Shown: piece by piece, positions 20,889 to 33,274 of the stretch
How the letters are laid out: the number at the start of each line of letters is the position of its first letter
Numbering within the stretch: position 1 is the stretch's first letter
Assembly: GCA_022573655.1 (NCBI GenBank)
Contig: JACZTO010000003.1
Coordinates: forward strand, 1 to 64,000
Direction: 5' to 3'
DNA length: 64,000 bases
Source of the DNA: Pseudomonadota bacterium
Lineage (GTDB): Bacteria; Pseudomonadota; Gammaproteobacteria; Steroidobacterales; Woeseiaceae
Notes under the pieces: model-generated
Seen by the model: the letters and a program-made list of their open reading frames with translations, nothing else
Databases searched by the model: none
What the model was told of the DNA's origin: nothing
Position numbers and translations under genes: made by a program

Positions 20889-21986
20889 TCATAGGCGCAT
20901 GGGCATTACGACAAAGGTGCTGTCTTCATTTCCTGGCTGACGAATTAAGCAACTGGAATTACTGTCCTGTACGGACAGCGTTACAATATCGCCCTCTACC
21001 GCGCCAAGTGCGTCGAGAAGATAATTGACGTTGAACCCGATCTCTATGTCTTCGCCGCTGTACTCAACTTCGAGCTCCTCCTCGGCCTCTTCCTGCTCTG
21101 GATTGTGCGCCTGTAGAATCACTCCACTGTCGCGAATGACCAGCCGAATGCCACGATATTTTTCGTTGGACAGGATCGCCGTCCTCTGCAAGGCGTCACG
21201 AAATTCGCTTCTGTTCGCCTTTAGTTCGTTTGCCGACTCTTTCGGGATTACCCGATCATACTCGGGAAATTTTCCATCGATTAGCTTCGACGTAAAGCGA
21301 ATTCCCTCAAGTTGAATCCGAATGTGATTCGAACCAAGCTCTATGTTGAGGTCACCCTCTCCGCTCATTAACCGTTGCAACTCCAGGACACCTTTACGCG
21401 GCACAATGACCTGCTGCGCCTCAAGATCTGCTCCGTCGAGTTCGACCTGGCATAACGCAAGACGGTGCCCATCTGTCGCAACTGCGCGCAAATGCTGTCC
21501 ACTGGTTTCAAGCAGCATGCCGTTAAGGTAATAACGAACATCCTGCTGTGCCATCGAAAAGTGCGTCTTTTCAATCAAATGCCCCAACGCCTCCTGGGAC
21601 ACCGAAATCGTCTGACCCGCCTTAATGTCCTCCACAACCGGAAACTCCGCGGCTGGTAAGGTTGCCAGATTAAATTTGCTGCGGCCGGCGCGAACAGACA
21701 GCTTCTCTCCACTAAGGCTGATGTGTATGTCAGACCCTTCCGGCAGGGCCTTGCAAATATCCAGCAGCTTTCGACCAGAGACCGTAATTTCTCCCCCGTT
21801 CTCCACATCAACCTCTGCCTGTGCGACCAGCTCAACCTCCAGGTCTGTTGCTGTTACCGATAACCGCCCATCTTGAGCAATGATCAAAACATTAGAGAGA
21901 ATCGGCATTGTCTGACGTCTCTCAACGACCCCAATTACGGCTTGTAATGGTTTCAACAGCACTTCCCGAGCTGCACTAAACTTCAT
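20889..21986 (-). CDS. dnaN: DNA polymerase III beta subunit (sliding clamp)
   Basis: 365 residues, like E. coli DnaN (366). It begins MKFSAAREVLLKPLQAV, and the three clamp domains are each about 120 residues. The C-terminus VVMPMRL is the usual clamp ending. ATG 21986 has AGGTGG six bases upstream; a GTG three codons earlier would lie within that ribosome site. The clamp tethers Pol III to DNA. It sits directly downstream of the candidate origin and 18 bases before recF. Confidence 0.98.
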   Translation of the reverse strand: MKFSAAREVLLKPLQAVIGVVERRQTMPILSNVLIIAQDGRLSVTATDLEVELVAQAEVDVENGGEITVSGRKLLDICKALPEGSDIHISLSGEKLSVRAGRSKFNLATLPAAEFPVVEDIKAGQTISVSQEALGHLIEKTHFSMAQQDVRYYLNGMLLETSGQHLRAVATDGHRLALCQVELDGADLEAQQVIVPRKGVLELQRLMSGEGDLNIELGSNHIRIQLEGIRFTSKLIDGKFPEYDRVIPKESANELKANRSEFRDALQRTAILSNEKYRGIRLVIRDSGVILQAHNPEQEEAEEELEVEYSGEDIEIGFNVNYLLDALGAVEGDIVTLSVQDSNSSCLIRQPGNEDSTFVVMPMRL

Positions 21987-22193
21987 AGGTTCCACCTGTT
22001 AATAAATATTGGAAATTTATAATTATTATTATTATTAAGCACCCAAAGGCCTGTGTATAACTTTTTAATTACCTTATTATTCAATAACTTACGTAATGAT
22101 TGCGAGGCTAGCAAATCCTGTTTCAATGGTCCATGTCCTGTGGGTGACCTGTGCATAAAAAACAGCAGTCAGTTTATTCACTGCTTATCCACA
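21987..22193. other. Candidate replication origin (oriC) between dnaA and dnaN
   Basis: This 207-base gap holds three DnaA boxes: TGTGTATAA (22052-22060), TGTGCATAA (22150-22158) and TTATCCACA (22185-22193). It also holds an A-T-only tract near 22010-22038. On the minus strand, box TTATACACA is followed by a 13-base G-C-rich spacer (22039-22051) and then five TAA triplets (22021-22038). This is the box, spacer, DnaA-trio order of the bacterial basal unwinding element. dnaA-dnaN gaps also serve in dnaN control, so function as the origin is inferred. Confidence 0.7.
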
Positions 22194-23552
22194 CTAACCT
22201 GTCAGGGTTCTGAACAAATTTAAATAATCGTCATCAACACGCTTGTCCGTCTCACGCAGCGATGCGATGCGCCGACAACCGTGCAGCACAGTTGTGTGAT
22301 CGCGCCCACCAAACGCATCGCCGATCTCCGGCAGACTGTGGTTGGTTAACTCTTTAGCTAAGGCCATGCCAAACTGTCGCGGCCGTGCTATCGAACGCGT
22401 ACGCTTCTTTGACAACAAATCCCCAACGCGAATCTTAAAGTAGTCGGCGACGGTTTTCTGGATGTTTTCAATGGACACGAGGCGGTCCTGCATTGCGAGT
22501 AGATCGCGTAATGCTTCTTTGGCGAAATCGACATCGATTTTGCGGCCCGTAAAGCGATGGTTGGCGATTACTCGACGCAACGCGCCCTCCAGTTCCCGAA
22601 CGTTGGAACGAATTCGTTTGGCGATGAAAAACGCGACTTCTTCCGGCAACGCGATACCATCAGCATCTGCTTTACTCATGAGAATCGCCACTGATGTCTC
22701 CAGCTCCGGCGGCTCAATGGACACGGTAAGGCCCCAACCAAAACGAGACTTGAGACGTTCTTCAAGACCGGCAACCTCTTTGGGATAGCGATCGCAGGTC
22801 AGAACAATTTGTCGCTGTCCTTCAAGCAAGGCATTAAAGGTGTGGAAAAACTCTTCCTGAGAGCGCTCCTTGCCGGCGAAGAACTGAATGTCGTCAATCA
22901 ATAAAGCATCCAGCGCGCGGTAGGAACGCTTGAATTCCGAAATCGTATTGTGCTGCAAGCCCTGAACCATGTCGCCAACAAAACGCTCCGAACGGACATA
23001 GCTGACTCGGGCGTTGGGATTATTCTCAACCATGGCGTTGCCAATGGCGTGCATAAGGTGCGTTTTTCCGAGGCCAACGCCACCATAAATGAACAGCGGG
23101 TTATATGATTTACCGGGATTCTCGCTGACCTGGCTGGCTGCGGCCCGCGCGAGCTGGTTGCTTTTACCTTCGACGAAATTTGCAAACGAAAAGATTGGGT
23201 TCAGTCGCGAAGCAACAGGTGGCGCGCTGGGGGCCGTGATAACAATTGGTCGAGGACGGTTGACGCTCGTCTGTGGCGACGCGGCACGGCGTGATCCGAC
23301 CTCAATAATAACCTTCGCGCCGCCGCCCTTTTCCTCGACGAGCTGCAAAATTCGATTTATGTGATGTTGCTGCAGCCAGTCCACGACGAAGCGATTAGGG
23401 GCCAACAGGCGCAAAACACCATCATCGTCCACGGCCTGCAAAGGCCGGATCCAGGTATTGAACTGTTGCTCTGGCAGCTCCGCTTGCAGTACGCGAAGGC
23501 AGTCGTTCCAGAGCGTCGATTCAGCAGACAACGAATTCCCCAAAGGGCCCAC
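22194..23552 (-). CDS. dnaA: Chromosomal replication initiator DnaA
   Basis: About 452 residues. Domain I starts at [26 protein letters not shown]. Domain III has Walker [11 protein letters not shown] and Walker [14 protein letters not shown]. Domain IV has the DNA-binding signature [14 protein letters not shown]. The GTG at 23552 lacks a good ribosome site. A TTG at 23531, seven codons in, has GGGG about seven bases upstream and would align better with E. coli DnaA, so the true start is open. The stop codon touches DnaA box TTATCCACA. Confidence 0.97.
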
Positions 23553-23898: not shown

Positions 23899-24306
23899 TT
23901 GCCGAGCGACGCGAGCAACCGGTTCAAAAAGCCAAACCGGCTACTGAACGCCGCGGCTTTCGGCCGCGTATTCGAAAAAGCGACGCGCAGCCGGGACGGG
24001 TTATTTACAGTGCTCTGGCGACGGAACGATGAGGATCTGGCTCGACTGGGCCTCGCGATCTCCAAGAAACTGTGCCGTCGCGCAACAGCACGAAATCGCA
24101 TTAAACGGATTGTTCGAGAATCTTTCCGGCAGCACCAAACGCTGTTGGCGGGGCTGGACGTGGTGGTTATCAATCGAGCGGCGGCGGCCGGCGCCGATAA
24201 CCCGGCAATGGCGACCAGTCTCAACCGGCACTGGCAACGCTGCGCAACGGCATGCCGCAAGAACGAATCAGACAATAAGCATGCAGGAAAGCTAACGGAT
24301 GGATAA
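23899..24306 (+). CDS. rnpA: Ribonuclease P protein component
   Basis: 135 residues from a TTG start; no ATG or GTG is available in frame nearby. The RNA-binding signature ISKKLCRRATARNRIKRIVR is clear. It helps the RNase P RNA process tRNA 5' ends. The stop lies eight bases inside yidC, so no room remains for yidD, which normally sits between rnpA and yidC. The start is the main uncertainty, since AGGA directly touches the TTG. Confidence 0.95.
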   Translation: MPSDASNRFKKPNRLLNAAAFGRVFEKATRSRDGLFTVLWRRNDEDLARLGLAISKKLCRRATARNRIKRIVRESFRQHQTLLAGLDVVVINRAAAAGADNPAMATSLNRHWQRCATACRKNESDNKHAGKLTDG

Positions 24307-31420: not shown

Positions 31421-33274
31421 ATGATTGAATCATACGACGTAATAGTGATCGGCGGCGGTCACGCCGGTACGGAAGCTTCACTGGCGGCCGCGCGTTCGGG
31501 TGCGGCTACGCTTCTGGTCACTCAAGACATCGCGACGCTTGGGCAGATGAGCTGCAACCCGGCCATCGGCGGAATTGGCAAGGGCCACCTGACCAGGGAG
31601 ATCGACGCGCTGGGCGGCGCGATGGCGCGGGCAATCGATGTGGCGGGAATCCAGTTCCGCACGCTCAACGCGAGCAAGGGCCCTGCCGTTCGCGCAACGC
31701 GCGCGCAGGCGGATCGCCAGCTTTACCGCCAGGTGATTCGGGCGATGATTGAAAATCAACCCAACCTGGCAGTGTTTCAGCAGTCGGTTGAGGATCTCAT
31801 TATCGACGGCGATCGTGTTACGGGAATCGTTACGTCGCAAGACCAGCGGTTTCTTGCCAGGACCGTCATACTGACTGTTGGCACATTCCTGGCGGGGCGT
31901 ATTCTTATCGGCCGCACCGAGAAGGCCGGGGGTCGAGCCGGCGACGCGTCGTCAAACAAGCTTGCAGAACGACTTCGGGAGCTACCGTTCAGCGTCGCGC
32001 GCCTGAAAACGGGTACGCCACCGCGCCTCGACGGCAAGACGCTGAACTATGACCTGATGCTCGAGCAGGCCGGCGACGAACCAACACCGGTGTTCTCTTT
32101 CCTCGGCCGGCGCCGCGATCACCCGCAACAGATTTGCTGCCACATCACCAGGACGACTGAGGAGACACACGACATTATTCGCAGCTCACTCCATGAGTCG
32201 CCCATGTATTCCGGGATGATAGAAGGGGTTGGGCCGCGTTACTGCCCGTCCGTTGAGGACAAGATTGTGCGTTTTGCGGACAAGACATCGCATCAGGTCT
32301 TCGTTGAGCCGGAGGGGCTGAATACGGACGAGGTTTACCCGAACGGCATTTCGACGAGTTTGCCGTATGAGACACAGGTGCGTTTTGTGCGCTCGATCAT
32401 TGGTTTCGAAAACGCGCACATTATGCAGCCGGGTTATGCAATCGAGTATGACTACTTCGATCCTCGCGACCTCAAGCCGACGCTGGAAACAAAGCATGTT
32501 GACGGGCTTTATTTTGCCGGCCAGATAAACGGCACGACGGGATACGAAGAGGCCGCCGCCCAGGGTTTGCTCGCCGGTATCAATGCAGCGCGCCAGGCGA
32601 AAGAACAGCAAGAGTGGTTCCCTGAGCGTCATGAAGCGTACATCGGTGTTTTGGTTGATGACCTGATCACGCGCGGCGTCAGCGAGCCCTACCGGATGTT
32701 TACGAGTCGCGCCGAATATCGGCTCACGCTGCGCGAAGACAATGCTGATCTGCGGCTTACGCCGAAAGGCCGGGAGCTCGGACTCGTCGATGACAAGCGT
32801 TGGAACATTTTCAATGCGAAGCGAGACGCGGTTGCGGCGGAGCAGAAGCGCCTCGATTCCATTACCGTGAAGTCGACGGGCACGAAAGCCGCCGCGCTGC
32901 TAAAGCGCCCGGAGATCACTTATCAGGACGTAATTGCGCTGCCGGAAGTCGGCAGTGGCGACATGCGTGCGCTCATCGATGATGAACAACGTGAGCAGGT
33001 GGAGTTGCAGCTCGAAGTGCAAGCCAAGTACGCAGGTTATATCGCCAGGCAGGAGCGCGAAATCGCGAAGCAGGCAAAGCAGGAGTCGTTACGGCTACCC
33101 GAAGATATCGACTATGAGGTGGTTGATGGGCTGTCAAACGAAGCGCTGCAAAAGCTCATGGCGTCGCGCCCGGTAACGCTGGGTCAGGCATCACGCCTGG
33201 AAGGCATGACACCTTCAGCGGTATCGCTGCTGTTGATACACCTCAAGAAGCGGCAGCTGAAGAAAAGTGCCTGA
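31421..33274 (+). CDS. mnmG: tRNA U34 carboxymethylaminomethyl-modifying enzyme MnmG (GidA)
   Basis: 617 residues. The FAD-binding start is [19 protein letters not shown], followed by the GidA blocks [15 protein letters not shown] and [22 protein letters not shown] helical C-terminal domain binds MnmE. It lies in its usual region, but here both mnmE (before) and rsmG (after) are separated from it by other genes. Confidence 0.98.

Follow-up and report, generated by a model that had tools for sequence, protein, structure and literature searches.

Pseudomonas-type origins are located in the rpmH–dnaA gap. The origin of Escherichia coli lies at mioC–mnmG, away from dnaA, and the IHF 13-mer in its left half, published as GATCAACAACCTG (PMC4285127), starts 31 nt before the R1-type DnaA box, with 14 nt separating R1 from a TAATAA motif. 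In E. coli, it is the upper, T-rich strand of the unwinding region to which DnaA attaches, via TT[A/G]T(T) motifs (PMC10380432, PMC5742627); the former paper also describes datA and DARS2, two E. coli sites which combine DnaA boxes with IHF binding. The basal unwinding system (BUS) of Bacillus subtilis, a species without IHF according to PMC13220808, is located downstream of dnaA and consists of a DnaA box, a GC-rich spacer, most commonly of 13 nt, and AT-rich DnaA-trios on the single strand whose 5' tail points away from the box (PMC8287927). The trio consensus is 3'-GAT-5' with a conserved middle A, and according to PMC10721633 this middle A is needed, C is tolerated and G or T is poor, G slowing opening in B. 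subtilis. A search of the open-licence literature, judged by titles, returned nothing on the oriC of Woeseiaceae.

The DNA analysed here (64,000 nt, hereafter the window) lies within a 71,403-bp contig (C23) of a Woeseiaceae-like gammaproteobacterium, the Woeseiaceae being a family of sediments of which few members are in culture; the genome comprises 94 contigs and 2.27 Mb and is 80% complete. In the window, dnaN is followed by recF and gyrB, and the other side of dnaA carries a divergent rpmH–rnpA–yidC–mnmE group (gene names assigned by reading the sequences), while mnmG is found at 31421–33274. The features of the dnaA–dnaN gap and its flanks are as follows.

20889–21986, minus strand: dnaN, with its ATG at 21986; a match was found in 55 of the 60 relatives searched.
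21987–22193, minus strand, read from dnaA to dnaN: the intergenic gap and candidate oriC, 207 nt.
21997–22005, minus strand: DnaA box with one mismatch, TTATTAACA, adjoining the dnaN ribosome-binding site.
22014–22038, plus strand: putative DNA unwinding element, with a T-rich plus strand ...TTATAATTATTATTATTATTAA carrying TTATT motifs, the single strand expected to be bound by DnaA.
22039–22051, minus strand: spacer GGCCTTTGGGTGC, 13 nt with 9 G/C (69% G+C).
22052–22060, minus strand: core (R1-type) DnaA box TTATACACA, perfect.
22079–22091, minus strand: IHF-type site TAAGTTATTGAAT, matching 8/9 of the consensus YAANNNNTTGATW and starting 31 nt before the core box.
22139–22147, minus strand: weak DnaA box TCACCCACA, two mismatches, 11 bp from the 22150 box and forming a direct pair with TTATGCACA.
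22150–22158, minus strand: DnaA box TTATGCACA, perfect, opposite in orientation to the 22174/22185 pair and 98 nt before the core box.
22174–22182, plus strand: DnaA box TTATTCACT, one mismatch, 11 bp from the 22185 box, second member of the pair.
22185–22193, plus strand: DnaA box TTATCCACA, perfect, at the dnaA stop, first member of the pair (minus-strand reading TGTGGATAA / AGTGAATAA, an inverted pair).
22194–23552, minus strand: dnaA.

The original prediction had placed the origin in this gap because of three DnaA boxes and, on the minus strand, a box followed by 13 mostly G-C bases and five TAA triplets. These elements were all recovered. Perfect TTATNCACA boxes occur at 22052–22060 (−), 22150–22158 (−) and 22185–22193 (+), and the core box is followed by the GC-rich spacer and by five TAA triplets within a longer A+T tract, a TAATAA motif beginning 14 nt past the box. 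Dinucleotide shuffles of the gap contained on average 0.02 perfect boxes and 0.45 boxes with at most one mismatch, and none of 2000 shuffles reached the observed numbers of three and five, respectively. The box signal resides in the clustering within the gap, since the 64-kb window as a whole shows no excess of boxes with at most one mismatch (36 against 30 expected). Four features go beyond the original prediction: the IHF-type site, the weak box at 22139–22147, the 11-bp pairing of the dnaA-proximal boxes, and the strand that defines the trios.

The comparison with relatives was based on a same-genus set comprising the window and 30 genomes, drawn from 36 same-genus genomes (G004, G011 and G026 gave no dnaN match, G018 and G020 fragments only, and G006 had no dnaA on the stretch). 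It was extended by 21 of 23 other genomes of the order (G038 and G054 were without match) and by named records, for which the best 80 of 556 dnaN loci were taken and 79 used (all but L117); L097, L110 and L161 among these 79 had no upstream dnaA, and 18 repeated gaps were merged. Among the best 80 of 556, the labels of the closest dnaN relatives read Woeseiaceae, Gammaproteobacteria, Proteobacteria or Chromatiales, and it is on these labels that the Woeseiaceae-like affiliation of the window is based.

Within the genus, the gap is 207–209 nt long in 29/31 cases and 219 nt in 2/31. All eight specified bases of the core box are invariant in 31/31 gaps, and a box with at most two mismatches occupies the −98 position relative to the core box in all 31; in 30/31 one stands at the same distance from the dnaA stop as 22185–22193, and in 27/31 at the position of 22174–22182. 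The positions of the 22139–22147 box (−87 from the core box) and of the 21997–22005 box (+56) are occupied by a box in 22/31 and 26/31 gaps, respectively. The sequence of the spacer is not conserved, its G+C content is (mean 0.65 versus 0.12 in the unwinding element over the 31 gaps). In the two long gaps, L032 (G017) and L036 (G008), an extra 11 bp is found at the dnaA-side box array, which corresponds roughly to a turn of the helix and to a single box period.

The original prediction had also reported that the dnaA–rpmH gap is free of boxes, and indeed no DnaA box at ≤1 mismatch was found in the 170 bp of this gap in the window, in contrast to the Pseudomonas-type location. Across 29 same-genus genomes, six perfect boxes were found in rpmH–dnaA gaps (6/29 gaps) versus 78 in dnaA–dnaN gaps (29/29). 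At least one perfect box is present in the rpmH–dnaA gap of L034, L042, L043, L046, L047 and L061, as well as in 12/20 order-level loci. These boxes of the relatives perhaps serve dnaA autoregulation.

In addition to a box cluster beyond chance near dnaA and dnaN, the window displays a local GC-skew switch. The plus-strand skew is −0.044 to the left of the gap and +0.062 to the right of dnaA, and its sign turns at 22–24 kb; the changepoint in 1-kb blocks falls at 24 kb (0/2000 permutations were as strong), and the cumulative minimum at 23,952 is displaced from the gap by 1.8 kb towards rpmH. When calculated over whole genes (17 genes), the plus-strand skew is negative in 8/8 of those on the left, among them dnaA, and positive in 8/9 of those on the right, with genes of both coding strands represented. 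Because the signs hold whatever the coding strand, gene orientation alone does not explain the turn. The skew at third codon positions is mixed (negative in 5/8 genes on the left, positive in 7/9 on the right). These values cover one 71-kb contig of a 94-contig assembly and describe a local, not a chromosome-wide, switch. The skew switch expected by the original prediction was seen locally in the window, but was weak or lacking in three longer contigs of relatives: the cumulative minima of G030 and G015 lie 2.5 kb and 3.8 kb from the gap, with a nearly flat left arm in the former and no sustained positive right arm in the latter, and in G021 the minimum is 34 kb away and no switch occurs near the gap. 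A plasmid search with dnaA gave partial dnaA matches only.

On this evidence, the dnaA–dnaN gap is very probably the oriC of this gammaproteobacterium. The assignment, made from sequence, draws on the local skew turn, on the conservation of boxes and AT tract across the 31 gaps of the genus, and on the finding that the site is the sole match at ≤3 mismatches to the full core pattern described below in its own genome (80% complete). Alternatively, the gap might chiefly serve to regulate dnaN, its boxes controlling transcription, and replication might start at another site. Weak sigma-70-like matches are present at 22028–22059 (−), and a conserved block, TTATTAACAGGTGG, adjoins the ribosome-binding site; however, the promoter-like matches barely exceed those in shuffles (3 versus a mean of 1.7, sd 1.4), the skew turns at the gap, and the same core arrangement recurs next to rpmH and mnmG, where dnaN is not the neighbour. 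A regulatory function in place of an origin thus appears very unlikely, and the reading as a dnaN promoter region only was rejected. The conserved sequence before dnaN, TTTATTAACAGGTGG at 21992–22006 (−), is strongly conserved in the genus and fuses a one-mismatch DnaA box to the ribosome-binding site.

A DnaA-titrating or recycling site of the datA/DARS type would likewise account for the co-occurrence of boxes and IHF-type site, this being the combination found in E. coli datA and DARS2. Such a site would nevertheless not explain why an AT-rich unwinding element carrying TTATT repeats lies at a constant distance, nor the dnaA–dnaN location and the position at the skew turn. We regard this alternative as extremely improbable and rejected it.

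The spacing of the IHF-type site relates the gap to the E. coli origin. Between −50 and −15 relative to the core box, seven columns are conserved in at least 26/31 same-genus gaps, and six of them make up the two half-sites of IHF, with TAA occupying −31 to −29 and TTG occupying −24 to −22. Among 110 distinct dnaA–dnaN gaps of this group and its relatives, 82 had a recognisable core composed of box and TAATAA, with a distance of 14 nt in 60 and 13 nt in 13 of them; 5 of the 28 gaps in which the core was not recognised are labelled Steroidobacteraceae. A match of at least 7/9 to YAANNNNTTGATW starts at exactly −31 in 65/82 cores, any other offset being occupied in at most 10/82. By group, this match was observed in 31/31 cores of the same genus, in 8/16 of the other same-order cores (13/16 within 1 nt) and in 26/35 of the further named loci (29/35 within one base), compared with an average of 3–5%, and at most 29%, for control windows of three offsets. 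The E. coli site scores 7/9 at the same −31 offset, and the 13-mer that starts there is the published IHF site.

The candidate origin thus shares with the left half of E. coli oriC an IHF site that separates an R1-type box from the remaining boxes and keeps the E. coli spacing, the orientation of the box, the 14 nt from box to TAATAA, and a T-rich strand with TTATT motifs. It differs in its location between dnaA and dnaN, in its confinement to a 207-nt gap with 11-bp-spaced box pairs next to dnaA, and in having TAA triplets as repeats where E. coli has 13-mers. Further, the GATC cluster of the E. coli type is missing: the gap of the window contains no GATC, nor do 24/31 same-genus gaps. Likewise, SeqA was detected in 0/20 genomes searched, the window's own included, whereas it was detected in E. 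coli among 14 controls. With neither GATC in the gap nor SeqA, the opening core resembles that of E. coli but the sequestration layer does not. IhfA (TIGR00987) exceeded its cut-off in 15/20 genomes, a count that included the window's own; in that own genome, which is 80% complete, IhfA was not over the cut-off, and its absence may reflect incompleteness of the assembly.

Taking the E. coli work as a model for the steps after sequence recognition (PMC13220808, PMC6127211 and PMC10380432), DnaA would fill the dnaA-side boxes, arranged as two 11-bp-spaced pairs, together with the R1-type box at 22052–22060. IHF bound at 22079–22091, between the two box groups, would bend the DNA, and the bend would draw the AT-rich element beyond the 13–14 nt spacer back onto the DnaA complex. 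DnaA would then hold the T-rich plus strand via repeated TT[A/G]TT motifs, whereupon the helicase could be loaded. We infer protein binding, bending, strand choice and origin function from the arrangement of the elements, and consider it likely that the gap is the chromosomal origin of this Woeseiaceae-like gammaproteobacterium and opens, probably, by the E. coli scheme.

The original prediction had matched the order of box, GC-rich spacer and AT repeats to the BUS, and this order, including the commonest BUS spacer length (13 nt; PMC8287927), is indeed present, as is the location downstream of dnaA. The alternative is a B. subtilis-type opening, in which DnaA would pass directly from the box to the neighbouring trios, with no more than an accessory part for IHF. 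Read from the spacer outward, the plus strand is 3'-AAT TAT TAT TAT TAT TAA TAT-5', and the box lies within 16 nt of seven NAN trios of the right polarity (at least three being the threshold), after a spacer of 13 nt. The minus-strand TAA triplets are the complement of this strand. The original prediction had described the triplets on the minus strand; these were rejected as the DnaA-bound strand, since trio polarity puts the single-strand target on the T-rich plus strand. Both the polarity of the trios and the upper-strand binding known from E. coli point to this plus strand as the one that DnaA is expected to bind.

The identity of the middle base separates the two modes of opening, as trios need A whereas in the E. 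coli motif either A or G can stand there. The two trios nearest the spacer keep a middle A in 29 and 31 of the 31 same-genus cores, which fits both models. Further out, a G at the middle base (C on the minus strand) was found in 17/31 cores in the fourth repeat and in 5/31 each in the third and fifth. A run of at least three NAN trios is present in 26/31 same-genus cores, but the best run is three in 15 and below three in 5, so that in 20/31 it does not exceed three, mostly through changes of the middle base from A to G, the substitution that slows opening in B. subtilis, where C is tolerated (PMC10721633). The trio grammar is hence not the best-preserved feature among relatives, whereas the conservation of the boxes that the original prediction asked for was seen. 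The window also departs from the 3'-GAT-5' consensus, its spacer-side repeat being 3'-AAT-5' and the next four 3'-TAT-5'. In comparison, each of the 31 cores contains two to five TTRTW pentamers within 32 nt, a motif taken from PMC10380432. In the class-wide modules described below (63 of 64 counted, one being without flank), the first two repeat-phase positions outside the search pattern hold 44 C and 2 G in 126 cells, while C or G occupies 22/252 cells at the four positions between repeat phases; a T-to-C change here reads as A-to-G on the T-rich strand. The distal repeats thus favour the E. coli motif over trios. In combination with the fixed IHF offset, which a B. subtilis-type opening leaves unexplained and which sets the locus apart from the BUS, these counts make that alternative unlikely, albeit one with a complete box, spacer and trio order in its favour. 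Of the original interpretation, the location of the origin and the BUS order stand; the minus-strand target and the trio grammar are not supported, and the E. coli scheme of IHF bend, R1-type box and TT[A/G]T(T) strand gives the better fit.

The occurrence of the arrangement outside the dnaA–dnaN gap was studied with a ruler pattern (IHF, 18 nt, box, 14 nt, TAATAA) in 369 gammaproteobacterial genomes. At ≤3 mismatches the ruler was found in 107/369 genomes, versus 12/369 for the reversed pattern (12 counted by eye), with no match in the remaining 262. At ≤2 mismatches, it was found in 63/369 genomes, the window's own and one same-genus genome among them, versus 0/369 when the IHF-to-box distance was lengthened by 5. 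Being based on a pattern, this search misses any genome whose ruler has changed. The 107 genomes contain 124 ruler places (64 at ≤2 and 60 at three mismatches), whose neighbours were typed with marker proteins. Out of the 64 low-mismatch places, 39 lie between dnaA and dnaN, 15 beside rpmH/rnpA at 0.1–1.2 kb, as in Pseudomonas-type origins, and 2 before mnmG (56/64 in these three main settings); 3 otherwise adjoin dnaA or dnaN, giving 59/64 beside one of the marker genes, and 5 lie elsewhere. The 60 three-mismatch places comprise 23 in dnaA–dnaN gaps, 3 at rpmH, 3 before mnmG and 1 close to mnmG but arranged differently; 1 more adjoins dnaA or dnaN in some other way, and 29 lie elsewhere. The latter are probably due to chance, which makes about half of this class chance matches. 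The unwinding element points to rpmH in 15/15 and to mnmG in 2/2 of the low-mismatch places, and to dnaN in the window.

The ruler therefore recurs at other known origin places, and from its sequence context looks like a portable origin core. As a single proposal, towards which we lean without great confidence, gammaproteobacterial origins would share one such core, with TTR repeats on the strand opposite TAATAA, kept while the origin moved among dnaA–dnaN, the rpmH side and mioC–mnmG, and the E. coli origin would be the same device as the Woeseiaceae-like dnaA–dnaN origin. The parts were already known; one exact ruler joining E. coli, dnaA–dnaN and rpmH-side origins across the class is apparently new, no prior description having been found in the open-licence literature (titles, abstract starts and passages, with subscription journals mostly outside). 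The comparison bears on the relation of E. coli-type to B. subtilis-type opening, and a location-independent ruler would offer a tangible module in which the function of origins and their evolution can be traced. Through the A-to-G changes of the repeats, the trio model can be tested against that of ssDUE recruitment, and the pattern can serve to locate origins in draft genomes, having given one match in the 94-contig assembly of the window. For Woeseiaceae, 21987–22193 names a minimal segment for plasmid use.

Several genomes carry cores in duplicate or in unusual surroundings. In G422, one contig of 4.97 Mb has two cores 21.7 kb apart, L250 (C1:4973189–4973248) and L251 (4951449–4951508), of which one lies beside rpmH (2 mismatches) and one before mnmG (3 mismatches). 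Its skew minimum, in the 100 kb examined, is at 4,949,953, 1.5 kb from the mnmG copy, and the two copies may represent a snapshot of an origin move. The genomes of L174 (G163) and L222 (G401) each have two cores near rpmH, separated by 0.3–0.6 kb. In L224 (G117), a perfect core is located right before dnaN, and the upstream gene resembles, by reading of its sequence, a sigma-54-type regulator and not dnaA. Finally, one-mismatch cores were observed off the usual markers before groES–groEL by a transporter (L267, G173) and in a gap flanked by genes for a MoxR-type ATPase and a transporter (L238, G307), all names being from reading the sequences; these two could possibly be moved or extra origins.
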